Source of the DNA: Streptomyces liliiviolaceus
Lineage (GTDB): Bacteria; Actinomycetota; Actinomycetes; Streptomycetales; Streptomycetaceae
NCBI RefSeq assembly: GCF_018070025.1
Contig: NZ_JAGPYQ010000001.1
Coordinates: forward strand, 930,001-994,000
Reading direction: 5' to 3'
DNA length: 64,000 nt
Notes under the pieces: model-generated
Told to the model about the DNA's origin: nothing
The model's input: only the letters and a program-made list of their open reading frames with translations
The model's database searches: none
Translations under genes and position numbers: made by a program
Shown here: positions 55,991 through 63,228 of the stretch, one piece after another
Numbering within the stretch: position 1 is the stretch's first letter
Layout: every line of letters starts with the position of its first letter

Positions 55991-57976
<1,986 letters not shown>

Positions 57977-58183
57977 TCAGCCGGTCGCCAGACGGACCAT
58001 GTCCGCCTGCGGCCCCTTCTGGCCTTGCGAGATCTCAAAATCGACCCGCTGACCCTCTTCCAGGGTGCGGTAGCCGTCCATCTGAATCGCGCTGTAGTGG
58101 ACGAATACATCCGCACCACCGTCGACCGCGATGAAGCCGTACCCCTTCTCCGCGTTGAACCATTTGACGGTGCCCTGAGCCAT
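57977..58183 (-). CDS. Cold-shock protein (CspA/ScoF type)
   Basis: The 68-residue product starts [20 protein letters not shown] and is a complete cold-shock domain with KGYGFI (RNP1) and DVFVHYSAI (RNP2). It ends in [10 protein letters not shown]. It binds single-stranded RNA and melts secondary structure. GGGGAG lies 7 bases before ATG 58183. It is the short, single-domain type, unlike the extended one at 28130. A long leader with a hairpin precedes it, as is usual for cold-induced csp genes. Confidence 0.95.
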
Positions 58184-58322
58184 GCCTAACTCCCCTATTA
58201 CTGGCCCTTGCACAGACCCGCACTTCGCGGATCCGGGTCAGACCTCACCCCCCAACGGTTGGGGGTGTGCGCCGGAACGCGTCGACCGCGGCTGAATGTA
58301 TCCGTCCAACTGCCGTCTGCAA
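58184..58322 (-). promoter_or_regulatory. Predicted promoter and 5' leader of the cold-shock gene
   Basis: On the reverse strand, TTGCAG (58317-58322) and TACATT (58295-58300) are spaced 16 bp, giving a leader of about 105 bases. The leader contains a hairpin around 58249-58265 (CCCCAAC-G-GTTGGGG). The element is predicted only. Confidence 0.4.
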
Positions 58323-58536
58323 CAGGTCAATCCGACGAGAATTCCGGGCACGGCTGATCGGAAATATGTGAAGGATTTACGAAGGATCAGGGCAAGTCGG
58401 GCCCGGTAAATGCCATAAACGGCTCAAAATGACCAGTTACTTTGGCTACTTCTTGTCGGGCTCCGGGCGCGAACTCATAAGCGCCGATCTTGCGAAGCGA
58501 AGCAGCTTCCCCAACTGTACCGCGCTCAACCATACA
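58323..58536. other. AT-richer intergenic stretch without a clear gene
   Basis: This 214-base segment is noticeably less GC-rich than its surroundings. A reverse frame from 58533 to 58387 reads MVERGTVGEAASLRKIGAYE and on to FTGPDLP, but its third codon positions are not GC-biased, so it is probably not a Streptomyces-style gene. It may be leader, promoter or foreign DNA. Confidence 0.35.
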
Positions 58537-58575
58537 GAATTGCCCCCTCCGCTTCAGGCGCGGAGGGGGCAATTC
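58537..58575 (-). terminator. Strong hairpin terminator of the sulfur-carrier operon
   Basis: A perfect 16-bp stem (58537-58552 with 58560-58575, core TTGCCCCCTCC/GGAGGGGGCAA) with a 7-base loop lies 73 bases beyond the stop of the MoaD/CysO-like gene. Confidence 0.8.
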
Positions 58576-58647
58576 GATGAACTCTGCGTGTTCGACATTA
58601 CCAAGGGTAACGAACGGCGCCGCCGAACGGGGCACCGTGCGGGGCGC

Positions 58648-58923
58648 TCAGCCTCCGGCGACCGCCGGGATGATCGAGACCCCGACGCCGTCCGGCGTAG
58701 CCGTCTCAAGCCCCTGCTCGAAGCGGACGTCGTCGTCGTTCACGTACACGTTGACGAACCGCCGCAGCTTGCCCTGGTCGTCCAGGACGCGGGCGGCGAT
58801 ACCGGTGTGGTTCTTCTCCAGATCGGCGATGACCTCGGCGAGGGTCGCCCCTTCGGCGGCCACTTCGGCCTGCCCACCGGTGTAGGTACGCAGAATGGTG
58901 GGGATACGGACGTTGACGCTCAC
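58648..58923 (-). CDS. MoaD/ThiS/CysO-type sulfur carrier protein
   Basis: The 91-residue beta-grasp protein starts MSVNVRIPTILRTYTGGQAE and ends VSIIPAVAGG. The C-terminal Gly-Gly becomes a thiocarboxylate after activation by a MoeB/MoeZ-type enzyme. RFVNVYVNDDDVRFEQGLET is close to mycobacterial CysO, which donates sulfur for cysteine synthesis. It lies 69 bases after a threonine-synthase-like gene under a SAM-I riboswitch, so it is more likely a sulfur donor for amino-acid synthesis than for molybdopterin. The activating enzyme is not in the window. Confidence 0.88.
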   Translation of the reverse strand: MSVNVRIPTILRTYTGGQAEVAAEGATLAEVIADLEKNHTGIAARVLDDQGKLRRFVNVYVNDDDVRFEQGLETATPDGVGVSIIPAVAGG

Positions 58924-58954
58924 GGGACCTCCATCAGGTAGGGCTGTGGTACAG

Positions 58955-58986
58955 CGCCCCTTCTTCGGGGGCGCGGGGAACTGCGA
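58955..58986. repeat. K-like element between the carrier and the synthase genes
   Basis: GCGCCCC-TTCTTC-GGGGGCGC forms a 7-8-bp hairpin whose right arm continues as GCGGGGAACTGCGA, a K core with an altered end. It lies between two genes of the probable operon and may tune expression of the second. Confidence 0.65.
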
Positions 58987-58992
58987 CAGCGA

Positions 58993-60309
58993 TCAGGACC
59001 CGAGCCCAGCCTCGTGGAAGGAGTCGAGGTTCGGGCGGATGGTCGCGGTCAGCCCCGTGTCGGAGGCGACGGCGTCCAGCGTCTTCAGACCGTCCCCCGT
59101 GTTGAGGACGACGGTCGTCAGACTCGGGTCCAGCAGACCGGCCTCGATCAGCTTCTTCGTCACCCCCACCGTCACCCCGCCGGCGGTCTCCGCGAAGATC
59201 CCCTCGGTCCGCGCCAGCAGCTTGATCGCGTCGACGACCTGGTCGTCGTTCACGTCCTCCACGGCCCCGCCCGTCCGGCGGGCGATGTCGAGCACGTACG
59301 GCCCGTCGGCCGGGTTGCCGATGGCGAGGGACTTCGCGATCGTGTCCGGCTTCTGCGGCCGTACGACGTCGTGCCCGGCCTTGTAGGCGACGGACACCGG
59401 CGAACAGCCCTCGGCCTGGGCACCGAAGATCTTGTACGGCTTGTCCTCGACCAGACCGAGCTGGATCAGCTCCTTCAGCCCCTTGTCGATCTTCGTCAGC
59501 TGCGAACCGGAGGCGATCGGTACGACCAGCTGGTCCGGCAGCCGCCAGCCGAGCTGCTCACAGATCTCGTACGCCAGGGTCTTGGAGCCCTCCGCGTAGT
59601 ACGGCCGCAGGTTGACGTTGACGAAGCCCCAGCCCTCGCCGGCCGGGTCGCCGATCAGCTCGGAGCAGAAGCGGTTCACGTCGTCGTAGTTGCCCTCGAT
59701 GCCGACGAGCTCGCCGCCGTAGACCGCGGCCATGACGACCTTGCCCTGCTCCAGGTCGTGCGGGATGAACACGCAGGAACGGAAGCCGGCCCGCGCGGCG
59801 GCGGCGCCCACCGCGCCCGCGAGGTTGCCGGTGGAGGAGCAGGAGAGCGTGGTGAAGCCGAAGGCGCGCGCGGCCTCCAGCGCCTGGGCGACGACACGGT
59901 CCTTGAAGGAGTGCGTCGGGTTGCCGGAGTCGTCCTTCACGAAGAGCTTGCCGGCGTCGACGCCCAGCTCACGGGCCAGGTTGTCGGCCTTGACGAGCTT
60001 GGTCCAGCCCGGGTTGATGTTCGGCTTGTCCGCCACGTCCGCGGGGACGGGCAGCAGCGGCGCGTACCGCCAGATGTTCGCGGGACCGGCTTCGATCCGC
60101 TTGCGGAGTTCCTCGGTGTCGTAACCGGAGAAGTCGTACGCGATCTCCAGCGGGCCGAAACACTCCTCGCAGGCGAAGACCGGACCGAGCGGTACGCGGT
60201 GACCGCACTCGCGGCAGGAGAGCGCGGCGGCCGGACCGAGATCGACGGCGTTCGCGGAGTCCGCGGAGGGGGTGGAGTTCGTGGTGCTTGCAACTGTCTG
60301 CGCAGCCAT
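58993..60309 (-). CDS. thrC: Threonine-synthase-family PLP enzyme (possible O-phosphohomoserine sulfhydrylase)
   Basis: The 438-residue PLP enzyme starts MAAQTVASTTNSTPSADSAN. CRECGH and CEECFG (about 32-52) form an N-terminal zinc ribbon. NPTHSFKDRVVAQALEAA carries the PLP lysine, CSSTGNLAGAVGAAAARAG binds the PLP phosphate, and VPIASGSQLTKIDKG follows. By family it would turn O-phosphohomoserine into threonine. Streptomycetes usually have another thrC in the hom-thrC-thrB operon, and this copy sits under a SAM-I riboswitch with a sulfur-carrier gene. A role in homocysteine formation from O-phosphohomoserine is therefore an attractive alternative (inference). Sequence alone cannot settle it. 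Confidence 0.85.
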   Translation of the reverse strand: MAAQTVASTTNSTPSADSANAVDLGPAAALSCRECGHRVPLGPVFACEECFGPLEIAYDFSGYDTEELRKRIEAGPANIWRYAPLLPVPADVADKPNINPGWTKLVKADNLARELGVDAGKLFVKDDSGNPTHSFKDRVVAQALEAARAFGFTTLSCSSTGNLAGAVGAAAARAGFRSCVFIPHDLEQGKVVMAAVYGGELVGIEGNYDDVNRFCSELIGDPAGEGWGFVNVNLRPYYAEGSKTLAYEICEQLGWRLPDQLVVPIASGSQLTKIDKGLKELIQLGLVEDKPYKIFGAQAEGCSPVSVAYKAGHDVVRPQKPDTIAKSLAIGNPADGPYVLDIARRTGGAVEDVNDDQVVDAIKLLARTEGIFAETAGGVTVGVTKKLIEAGLLDPSLTTVVLNTGDGLKTLDAVASDTGLTATIRPNLDSFHEAGLGS

Positions 60310-60326
60310 GGAGGCGAGGCCCTTTC

Positions 60327-60480
60327 CTCATCTTCCTCACGACGCACTTCGCCATGAGACGGATTTGGCACCTTCCCGAGCCGGGAGCCTCGCCGCACTG
60401 ATCGACAATGATCAGGACGAGACCGGCTGGAGGGTTGCCGGGGCTTCAACGGGCCGTATCCCTCTGCCCCTCTGGATGAG
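60327..60480 (-). ncRNA. SAM-I (S-box) riboswitch controlling the thrC-like/sulfur-carrier operon
   Basis: On the reverse strand the leader reads CTCATCCAGAGGGGCAGAGG, then GGATACGGCCCGTTGAAGCC and CCGGCAACC. This is the S-box core (kink-turn GAGGGA with GGCAACC). Its end has AAGGTGCCAAATCC and GATGAGG. P1 pairs CTCATC (60475-60480) with GATGAG (60327-60332), and the latter runs into GAGGAAAGG, the likely ribosome binding site. SAM binding would then hide the site and lower translation. The start codon is 18 bases further on. Confidence 0.92.
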
Positions 60481-60657
60481 CGGTATTTAGTTGTCTACGC
60501 AACGACCCCCGACATGCGATGGTCATCAGCGTTGTTCAAGACTGTAACCGACGGCATGGATGGTGGAGAGAGCCGTCCGAACCGCGAGATGACCGTCACA
60601 CCGGTTTACGTCGCGGCGGGACGCACGCATCCCGATGAACGCAAGGGAGAGCCGCAC

Positions 60658-61605
60658 GTGCTGGAAGACGTCGAGCGCTGGCTGAGCACGCGCTCCTGGT
60701 CCGTCGAGGACCGCCCGCTCAAGAAGCTGATCGCCGCGAAGCGGTCCACGGGCTCCACGGTCAGTGTCGTACTGCCCGCGCTCAACGAGGAGGAGACCGT
60801 CGGCGAGATCGTCGCCGTGATCCGCCGTGAGCTGATGACCGCGAGAGTGCCGCTCGTCGACGAGATCGTGGTGATCGACTCGGGATCGACGGACCGCACC
60901 TCCGAGGTCGCCGCGGCCGCGGGTGCCCGGGTGGTGCACCGGGACGAGATCCTGCCCCGTATCCCGGCCGTCCCCGGCAAGGGCGAGGTGCTGTGGCGCT
61001 CGCTGCTCGTCACGCGCGGGGACATCGTGGCCTTCGTCGACGCGGACCTGAAGGAGTTCTCGGCGGACTTCGTCTCCGGGATCGTCGGTCCGCTGCTCAC
61101 GGATCCGGGGGTCGACCTCGTCAAGGCGATGTACGACCGTCCGCTGGGCTCCGCGTCGGGCCAGGGGGGCCGGGTCACCGAACTCATGGCCCGGCCGCTG
61201 CTCAACATGCACTGGCCGCAGCTGGCCGGCTTCGTCCAGCCGCTGGGCGGGGAGTACGCGGCCCGCCGCTCGCTCCTCGAACGGCTTCCGTTCCCCGTCG
61301 GGTACGGGGTGGAGCTGGGCATGCTGGTCGACTCGCTGCATCTGGTCGGGCTCGACGCCCTCGCGCAGGTGGACGTGGGCGTCCGCAAGCACCGGCATCA
61401 GGACGGGCAGGCGCTCGGGCGGATGTCCGCGGCGATCTATCGGACCGCTCAGCTCCGGCTGGCGCGCGGGCACATGATCCGGCCGTCGTTGACGCAGTTC
61501 GTCCGGGGGGAGCGGGGTTTCGAGCCGCGAACGCATTCGGTGGACATGGAGGAACGTCCCCCGATGACCGACATCAGGGAGTACGTGTCGCGCCGCGCGG
61601 CTTAG
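60658..61605 (+). CDS. Glucosyl-3-phosphoglycerate synthase
   Basis: The 315-residue glycosyltransferase starts at GTG 60658 (VLEDVERWLSTRSWSVEDRP) behind AAGGGAG. VSVVLPALNEEETVGEIVAV is the GT-A donor site, VVIDSGSTDRTSEVAAAAGA follows, and IVAFVDADLKEF carries the metal-binding DxD. QPLGGEYAARRSLLERLPFP and VGYGVELGMLVD match GpgS of mycobacteria, which makes glucosyl-3-phosphoglycerate from UDP-glucose (or ADP-glucose) and 3-phosphoglycerate. It lies upstream of otsA and the convergent otsB, so it shares the compatible-solute and nucleotide-sugar theme. The ATG at 60514 gives a non-conserved extension and is rejected. Confidence 0.9.
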   Translation: MLEDVERWLSTRSWSVEDRPLKKLIAAKRSTGSTVSVVLPALNEEETVGEIVAVIRRELMTARVPLVDEIVVIDSGSTDRTSEVAAAAGARVVHRDEILPRIPAVPGKGEVLWRSLLVTRGDIVAFVDADLKEFSADFVSGIVGPLLTDPGVDLVKAMYDRPLGSASGQGGRVTELMARPLLNMHWPQLAGFVQPLGGEYAARRSLLERLPFPVGYGVELGMLVDSLHLVGLDALAQVDVGVRKHRHQDGQALGRMSAAIYRTAQLRLARGHMIRPSLTQFVRGERGFEPRTHSVDMEERPPMTDIREYVSRRAA

Positions 61606-61654
61606 TCGGGAGCCTGCGGGAGCATTGTCGTCCGCGGCCCGGTGGGGGCCGTTC

Positions 61655-61724
61655 GCGCAGTTCCCCGCGCCCCCATCAGGGGCGCGGGGAACTGCGCAGT
61701 CTTTAGGGGCGCGGGGAACTGCGC
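61655..61724. repeat. Three K elements with a perfect 19-bp hairpin
   Basis: The reverse core 61655-61673 and forward core 61679-61697 are perfect complements with a CATCA loop. A third forward core lies at 61706-61724, 95 bases before the otsA start. Both flanking genes run in the same direction. Confidence 0.9.
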
Positions 61725-61818
61725 GGCACGCCCCCACCGGGGGCCAGGTGACCCACGACCTCCCGCCGCGGCCAGGGGGAACGTTTGAGCGGATAGCGCT
61801 GCGGCTAGATTTCGAGTC

Positions 61819-63228
61819 ATGGCTCCCACCCACGGCACACACCCCGTCCTCGTCGCGTCCAACCGCGGCCCGGTCTCGTACACCGAGGACGAGTCCGGCG
61901 AGCTCACGGCCAAGCGCGGCGGAGGCGGACTCGTGTCGGGCCTCTCCGCCATCGGCCCCGACGCCGGCGCCCTGTGGGTCTGCTCGGCCCTCGGCGACGG
62001 CGACCGCGAGGCCGTCCGGCGGGGCGTGGGCGAGGACGGCGTCCGGATGCTCGACATCGACGCCGACACCCACGCCGCCGCGTACAACGGCATCGCGAAC
62101 TCCGCGCTGTGGTTCGTCCACCACATGCTCTACCAGACCCCCCTGGAACCCGTCTTCGACGCGGAGTTCCGGCGCAAGTGGGCGGCCTACGAGACGTACA
62201 ACCGGGCCTTCGCCGAGGCACTGGCCGAGGAGGCGGCGGACGGCGCAGCGGTCCTCGTACAGGACTACCACCTGACGCTCGTGCCGCGGATGCTCCGCGA
62301 ACTCCGTCCCGACCTGCGCATCGGGCATTTCTCGCACACCCCGTGGGCCCCGCCGGACTACTTCCGGCTCCTCCCGGACGACATCGCGGCGAAGGTCCTC
62401 GACGGCATCCTCGGCGCCGACCGGGCCGCGTTCCTCACCCGGCGGTGGGCGGACGCGTTCACGCAGTGCTGTCGGGCCGTACTGGGGGACGACTTCGACC
62501 CGGACACGCGGATCGGCGTGCACGGCCTCGGCGCCGACGCGGACTTCCTGCGCGAGCGTTCGCACCGCCCGGACGTCGACGAGCGGATGGCCGCGCTGCG
62601 CGAGCAGATCGGCACCGCGCCCGACGGCAGCGCCCGGAAGACCGTCGTGCGGGTGGACCGGACCGAGCTCTCCAAGAACATCGTGCGCGGCCTGCTGGCG
62701 TACCGGCAGCTGCTGGACGACCGGCCCGAGTGGCGCGAGCGGGTGGTGCACGTGGCGTTCGCGTACCCGTCGCGGCAGGACCTGGCGGTGTACCGCGACT
62801 ACACGGCCGAGGTGCGGCGGGTCGCCGACGAGATCAACTCCGCGTACGGGACGGCCGGGTGGACGCCGGTCGTGCTGCACGTGAAGGACGACTTCGCGCG
62901 CTCGCTCGCGGCGTACCGGCTGGCCGACGTGGCCCTCGTGAACCCCATCCGCGACGGGATGAACCTCGTCGCGAAGGAGGTGCCCGTCGTGTCCGACGAC
63001 GGGTGCGTGCTGGTGCTGTCGCGGGAGGCGGGGGCGTACGAGGAGTTGGGCGAGGACGCGGTTGTCGTGAACCCGTACGACGTGTCGTCCACCGCGGATG
63101 CGTTGCATGAGGCGTTGACCGTGCCTCTTGCTGAGCGGGCCGAGCGGACGAAGCGGTTGGCTGTGGCCGCCACCGCGTTGCCTCCGGCGCAGTGGTTTCT
63201 TGACCAGTTGCATGCGCTCGGCTCTTAG
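61819..63228 (+). CDS. otsA: Trehalose-6-phosphate synthase
   Basis: The 469-residue GT20 enzyme starts MAPTHGTHPVLVASNRGPVS. It makes trehalose 6-phosphate from UDP-glucose and glucose 6-phosphate in the cytosol. SNRGPVSYTEDESG and GGGLVSGLSAIGPD open the fold, VQDYHLTLVPRMLRELRPDL is the acceptor-site block, VDRTELSKNIVRGLLAYRQL gives the donor Arg/Lys, and NPIRDGMNLVAKEVPVVSDD is the nucleotide-binding end. TAGATT at 61806-61811, 7 bases before ATG, suggests a leaderless mRNA. The phosphatase gene follows convergently. Confidence 0.95.
   Translation: MAPTHGTHPVLVASNRGPVSYTEDESGELTAKRGGGGLVSGLSAIGPDAGALWVCSALGDGDREAVRRGVGEDGVRMLDIDADTHAAAYNGIANSALWFVHHMLYQTPLEPVFDAEFRRKWAAYETYNRAFAEALAEEAADGAAVLVQDYHLTLVPRMLRELRPDLRIGHFSHTPWAPPDYFRLLPDDIAAKVLDGILGADRAAFLTRRWADAFTQCCRAVLGDDFDPDTRIGVHGLGADADFLRERSHRPDVDERMAALREQIGTAPDGSARKTVVRVDRTELSKNIVRGLLAYRQLLDDRPEWRERVVHVAFAYPSRQDLAVYRDYTAEVRRVADEINSAYGTAGWTPVVLHVKDDFARSLAAYRLADVALVNPIRDGMNLVAKEVPVVSDDGCVLVLSREAGAYEELGEDAVVVNPYDVSSTADALHEALTVPLAERAERTKRLAVAATALPPAQWFLDQLHALGS

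Follow-up and report, generated by a model that had tools for sequence, protein, structure and literature searches.

A SAM-I riboswitch, a threonine-synthase-like enzyme and a sulfur carrier: evidence for a metM-metO homocysteine operon in Streptomyces liliiviolaceus and for related loci across the Actinomycetota

Introduction

What does an enzyme of the threonine synthase family do when its gene stands behind a SAM-sensing RNA and ahead of the gene for a sulfur carrier? SAM-I riboswitches are RNAs that sense SAM, the product of methionine, and one of them precedes such a gene pair in the window, by which we mean the whole 64,000-nucleotide stretch of Streptomyces liliiviolaceus DNA analysed here (C1:930001-994000 of an 11.1 Mb genome). 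The original prediction for this locus had proposed that the enzyme makes homocysteine from O-phosphohomoserine and carrier-bound sulfur, and that its thrC label may be misleading; it also mentioned that similar work might exist in Streptomyces.

Such work does exist. MetM was reported as a homocysteine synthase in Streptomyces by Hasebe et al. 2024 (AEM 90:e01247-24), which we cite through the available excerpt of PMC12172450. The same excerpt links MetM of S. albulus to methionine auxotrophy and describes a SAM riboswitch upstream of metM as well as a metO gene. The metM-metO system is already known, published in 2024, and the window fits it.

Results

A riboswitch-led gene pair on the minus strand

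The locus and its surroundings comprise the following features:

60325..60482, minus strand: long-P3 aptamer of a SAM-I (S box) riboswitch (Rfam RF00162, 74.6 bits, E 1.2e-15)
60310..60324, minus strand: 15-nt spacer between aptamer and ATG, with AAGGG (end of the purine-rich tract) and GCCTCGC
58993..60309, minus strand: metM, threonine-synthase-like PLP enzyme of 438 aa, predicted O-phosphohomoserine-dependent homocysteine synthase
58648..58923, minus strand: metO, ThiS/MoaD-family sulfur carrier of 91 aa with an AVAGG end
58537..58575, minus strand: stable GC hairpin 3' of metO, without a T run, a possible transcript 3' end
61819..63228, plus strand: otsA-like gene
60514..61605, plus strand: glucosyl-3-phosphoglycerate synthase
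57977..58213, minus strand: cold-shock protein
55991..57622, minus strand: groEL

The direct neighbours of metM-metO encode the cold-shock protein and glucosyl-3-phosphoglycerate synthase. Over a wider span (55991-63228), the gene order otsA, metM, metO, groEL is common to the window and Acidimicrobium. The closest named relatives of the window's MetM are from Streptomyces.

The clear S-box aptamer announced by the original prediction was recovered with the Rfam model: the RF00162 match (60482-60325) exceeded the gathering score of 44.4 and was full-length (model positions 1-108 of 108), P3 being extended by a long insertion. With 150 of 629 first-look candidates scored, it was the sole SAM-I found in the genome. 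The match ends at 60325 and the metM ATG lies at 60309, 15 nt apart, and the 3' strand of P1 (GATGAG) continues into the purine tract that forms the ribosome-binding tract, in line with the P1 strand next to the ribosome binding site noticed beforehand. A spacer of this length leaves no room for an intrinsic terminator, so the layout is most simply read as translational control: when SAM is plentiful, P1 would close and run into the ribosome-binding tract, a state likely to block translation initiation. Folding of 31 leaders, with P1 forced or with its 5' strand unpaired, revealed no consistent change in ribosome-site accessibility, so that translational control is argued from the layout alone.

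In 102 of 124 leaders, a set in which some genomes count twice, the 3' strand of P1 is followed by GCCTCGC. When GCCTCGC and GCGAGGC were scored together in this set, 58 leaders carried both, 44 only the downstream element, 3 only the aptamer element and 19 neither. Many Streptomyces leaders carry, close to the tip of P3, a CGAGG complementary to a CCTCG just ahead of the ATG. We did not build on a long-range pairing between these two regions, as short P3 stems form a GCGA tetraloop from the same letters. The placement of the start codon within P1 of Streptomyces leaders was also rejected, since in the window and several relatives the distance to the annotated ATG is not divisible by three. 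A sigma-70 scan found no promoter, which is a weak indicator for Streptomyces.

At the other end of the operon, the expectation of a strong terminator at 58537-58575 held only in part. The GC stem is indeed very stable (z -5.71, equalled by 0 of 200 shuffles), but a terminator scan of 58300-60700 found none, the stem having remained uncalled because no T run stands behind it. The hairpin between metM and metO was no better than shuffles (z 0.30).

MetM stands apart from the canonical threonine synthase

MetM is read from an ATG ORF (60309-58993) and is, as foreseen, a PLP enzyme of the threonine synthase family (222.8 bits against Pfam PALP; 265 bits against NCBIfam TIGR00260, thrC, with a cut-off of 167.1). 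A genome search with MetM located a canonical thrC between hom and thrB, so that metM is not the only thrC of this genome, and the two products share 33% identity. A third, distant threonine-synthase-like gene lies at C1:142197-143324; no hom or thrB was recognised near it by eye among ORFs of at least 200 aa.

In the tree, MetM (24 rows) and ThrC (17 rows) were split by a 99/99 branch, which leaves MetM outside the group of the ThrC from the hom-thrC-thrB cluster. The PLP lysine and the STGN motif are retained in MetM, and a comparison of 23 MetM with 17 ThrC sequences gave 28 diagnostic positions. These include L163/T89, N233/S156, R235/N158 and Y238/R161 (MetM/ThrC), and A266-S267-G268 of MetM in place of G188-N189-A190 of ThrC. 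The structure model of MetM (pLDDT 87.7) best matched solved folds of threonine synthases. Canonical ThrC has the fold, the PLP lysine and STGN in common with MetM, with O-phosphohomoserine as the expected substrate of both, whereas the two ThrC rows shown are without the N-terminal Cys4 region of MetM. On sequence grounds, MetM is read as a threonine synthase paralogue with a lineage of its own.

MetO and the other sulfur genes of the genome

The second ORF, which starts with GTG (58923-58648), encodes the Gly-Gly-ended beta-grasp protein that had been predicted, with 62.2 bits for the ThiS family. Among 78 MetO homologues from the named loci, the C-terminus was AGG in 54, AGGC in 19 and of another kind in 5. 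According to the available excerpt of PMC6006322, the capped carriers PtmS2 (GG-MV) and possibly PtmS3 (GG-C) of CB00739 are tied to thioplatensimycin. MetO might be shared with antibiotic pathways, given the GG-C end, as in PtmS3, of 19 of the 78 homologues (loci L122-L201).

MetO is identical at 57 of 91 residues (63%) to the genome's own CysO-like carrier. The latter, with a VAGGMV end, belongs to a separate cluster that we read as JAMM protease, carrier and CysM, the names of CysM and the JAMM protease coming from ORF reading. A CysO-type cysteine system was rejected for metM-metO, since the cluster in question lies at another site. The genome also encodes, away from metM-metO, a MoeZ-like activator, of which a 235-aa piece scored 495.5 bits, under the MoeZ cut-off of 647.

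The genome carries MetX as well (C2:1299580), adjoining an O-acetylhomoserine sulfhydrylase (MetY; 823 bits vs 703). Two possible homocysteine routes are therefore present, and MetM is not the sole one. Furthermore, we found enzymes of the cystathionine gamma-synthase type and of the gamma-lyase type, both over their cut-offs, and a fourth such enzyme, nearest to methionine gamma-lyase and under its cut-off.

Distribution in the genus and the phylum

MetM was detected at E <= 1e-150 in all 200 same-genus genomes, taken to be Streptomyces on the basis of named relatives, and SAM-I in 199 of them (two matches in three genomes; none in G362). Among the 30 best-scoring same-genus loci, MetM lay downstream of the riboswitch in all 30; at one locus (L097), MetM is readable in a single frame only from residue 173. 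MetX matched at E <= 1e-60 in 58 of the 200, a count within the genus at a threshold adopted because neither a genome nor a control reached the 500-bit cut-off. In the 142 same-genus genomes without a MetX match, MetM would be the likelier main route to homocysteine.

In a phylum sample of 296 genomes, 108 held MetM at E <= 1e-80 and 145 held SAM-I. The riboswitch lay within 400 nt upstream of MetM in at least 58 of the 108, or at least 62 with later finds (L034, L042, L048, L232). In the 30 best phylum MetM loci, the window's included, SAM-I reached the gathering score in 23 and stayed below it or was lacking in 7, and a carrier adjoined MetM in 28 but not in 2. One of the exceptions (L035) has SAM-I and no adjacent carrier; another (L051) has neither, and carries a T-box-like leader (1178-1446) at 75.1 bits, under a cut-off of 93. 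Among 80 named loci, the carrier was next to MetM in 78, both misses being contigs that end just past metM, and Rfam found SAM-I in 20 of 20 loci chosen from the 80.

A ThrC match at E <= 1e-60 accompanied MetM in 103 of the 108 genomes, counted by genome and not by place (100 at E <= 1e-99); the matches of G017, G111 and G175 are weak (1e-87 to 1e-74) and could be MetM itself. The five genomes with no ThrC match at this threshold are G058, G097, G149, G274 and G275, although completeness is just 87% for G149 and 88% for G275, and the search would overlook a ThrC of a distant type. Strong Cys/Met-PP enzymes accompany MetM in two genomes inspected for them (G016 and G078), so MetM is not always alone.

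On a broader scale, 4453 protein clusters among 8000 candidates scored matched the Acidimicrobium MetM at E <= 1e-150. We did not use the 7997 proteins at E <= 1e-60 as a count because they may include true ThrC. Among the matches listed (two listings of 120), nearly all source-named proteins are called threonine synthase.

The case of Acidimicrobium ferrooxidans

Price et al. 2018 (PMC5764234) list A. ferrooxidans DSM 10331 as being without the traditional, the DUF39 or the protein-thiocarboxylate homocysteine pathway and, in the available excerpt, count it as one of three organisms with an undiscovered homocysteine route. In our phylum sample, the MetM of genome G080 matches, at 100% identity, a public protein of 414 aa named 'threonine synthase [Acidimicrobium ferrooxidans DSM 10331]'. 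Its locus (L232, 2742-4401) holds a SAM-I riboswitch of 60.0 bits, MetM and a GG-ended carrier that shares 49% identity with MetO, flanked by an otsA-like gene and groEL. The aptamer match (4401-4294) spans the metM start codon at 4297-4295, the start being that of the public protein. Judged by this overlap, the A. ferrooxidans leader would be a clearer case for start-site blocking than the Streptomyces leaders.

The same genome has a separate ThrC match (2.5e-119) and one strong Cys/Met-PP enzyme, nearest to cystathionine gamma-lyase and under its cut-off (a 320-aa piece was scanned). Among the titles listed by a literature search on Acidimicrobium and homocysteine, none states MetM as the homocysteine route of this organism.

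Discussion

We are highly confident that the window holds the Streptomyces metM-metO operon, with MetM as a predicted O-phosphohomoserine-to-homocysteine enzyme, MetO as its probable sulfur donor and SAM-I as the controlling element. In the mechanism that we propose, MetM would bind O-phospho-L-homoserine on PLP and eliminate phosphate, like threonine synthase, and would then add sulfur in place of water to yield homocysteine. MetO would carry a thiocarboxylate at its C-terminus, with the MoeZ-like activator as the probable charging enzyme, and this thiocarboxylate would probably deliver the sulfur to MetM. Both the route put forward by the original prediction and its suspicion about the thrC label agree with the report on Streptomyces MetM/MetO, as excerpted in PMC12172450. 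Two observations that would have spoken against that prediction did not occur: the leader fits the Rfam SAM model, and the genome has a canonical thrC besides metM.

Compared by description, the window shows no difference from MetM/MetO of S. albulus, for which the excerpt gives the same kind of enzyme, the sulfur-carrier gene metO and a SAM riboswitch upstream of metM. The CysM-CysO-Mec+ system of Mycobacterium, which serves cysteine synthesis, likewise has a PLP enzyme that draws sulfur from a Gly-Gly carrier (PMC3227635, available excerpt). On the other hand, metM-metO differs from it in the lineage of the enzyme (threonine synthase vs cysteine synthase), in the expected substrate and in its SAM-I control, and no protease gene was recognised alongside. 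A third comparison is offered by the protein-thiocarboxylate route of Wolinella succinogenes, in which homocysteine arises from a carrier thiocarboxylate, as proposed for MetM-MetO. Krishnamoorthy and Begley are said to have described this route in 2011, with an enzyme that reportedly belongs with the O-acetylhomoserine sulfhydrylases and takes a substrate other than O-phosphohomoserine. Both the enzyme family and the substrate would thus differ from those of MetM.

Could MetM instead be an ordinary second threonine synthase, next to which the riboswitch and the carrier are incidental? Its score over the NCBIfam thrC cut-off and the threonine synthases that are its nearest solved structures speak for such a role. 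However, the genome already has a canonical thrC in hom-thrC-thrB, MetM belongs to a separate lineage with changes at conserved positions, the sole SAM-I found in the genome sits at metM, the carrier adjoins MetM in 78 of 80 named loci, and the excerpt of PMC12172450 reports a homocysteine synthase function in Streptomyces. Taken together, we regard an ordinary second threonine synthase as highly improbable. A MetM that forms homocysteine but can make or deaminate threonine as well, for instance when it is short of carrier or sulfide, is easier to entertain, since a Microcystis relative (51.6% identity) is described in that excerpt as having threonine synthase and threonine deaminase activity in vitro, and since MetM could do both in the 5 of 108 genomes without a ThrC match. 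A threonine role would be unneeded in the 103 genomes that have such a match, and we hold a bifunctional MetM to be possible, albeit on the unlikely side.

The source of the sulfur may also be questioned, as MetM could use free sulfide in the cell while MetO serves another acceptor. Gly-Gly carriers can be shared, as the excerpt of PMC6006322 describes for PtmS2 and possibly PtmS3, and 19 of the 78 MetO homologues terminate in GG-C. Against this, metO has been kept beside metM from Streptomyces to Acidimicrobium, and we consider free sulfide an improbable donor in the cell. Our preferred reading remains that of MetM as a homocysteine synthase supplied by MetO.

Extending this reading beyond Streptomyces, we think it probable that MetM-MetO, often under SAM-I, is widespread among Actinomycetota as a route to homocysteine and is the missing route of A. 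ferrooxidans. What we add to the published system is modest: its pattern across the phylum and the case of Acidimicrobium. If the proposal is true, one of the three organisms listed in 2018 with an undiscovered homocysteine route gains a testable answer. Many genes that bear the name 'threonine synthase' probably encode homocysteine synthases, and the riboswitch together with the carrier would mark where this better reading applies.
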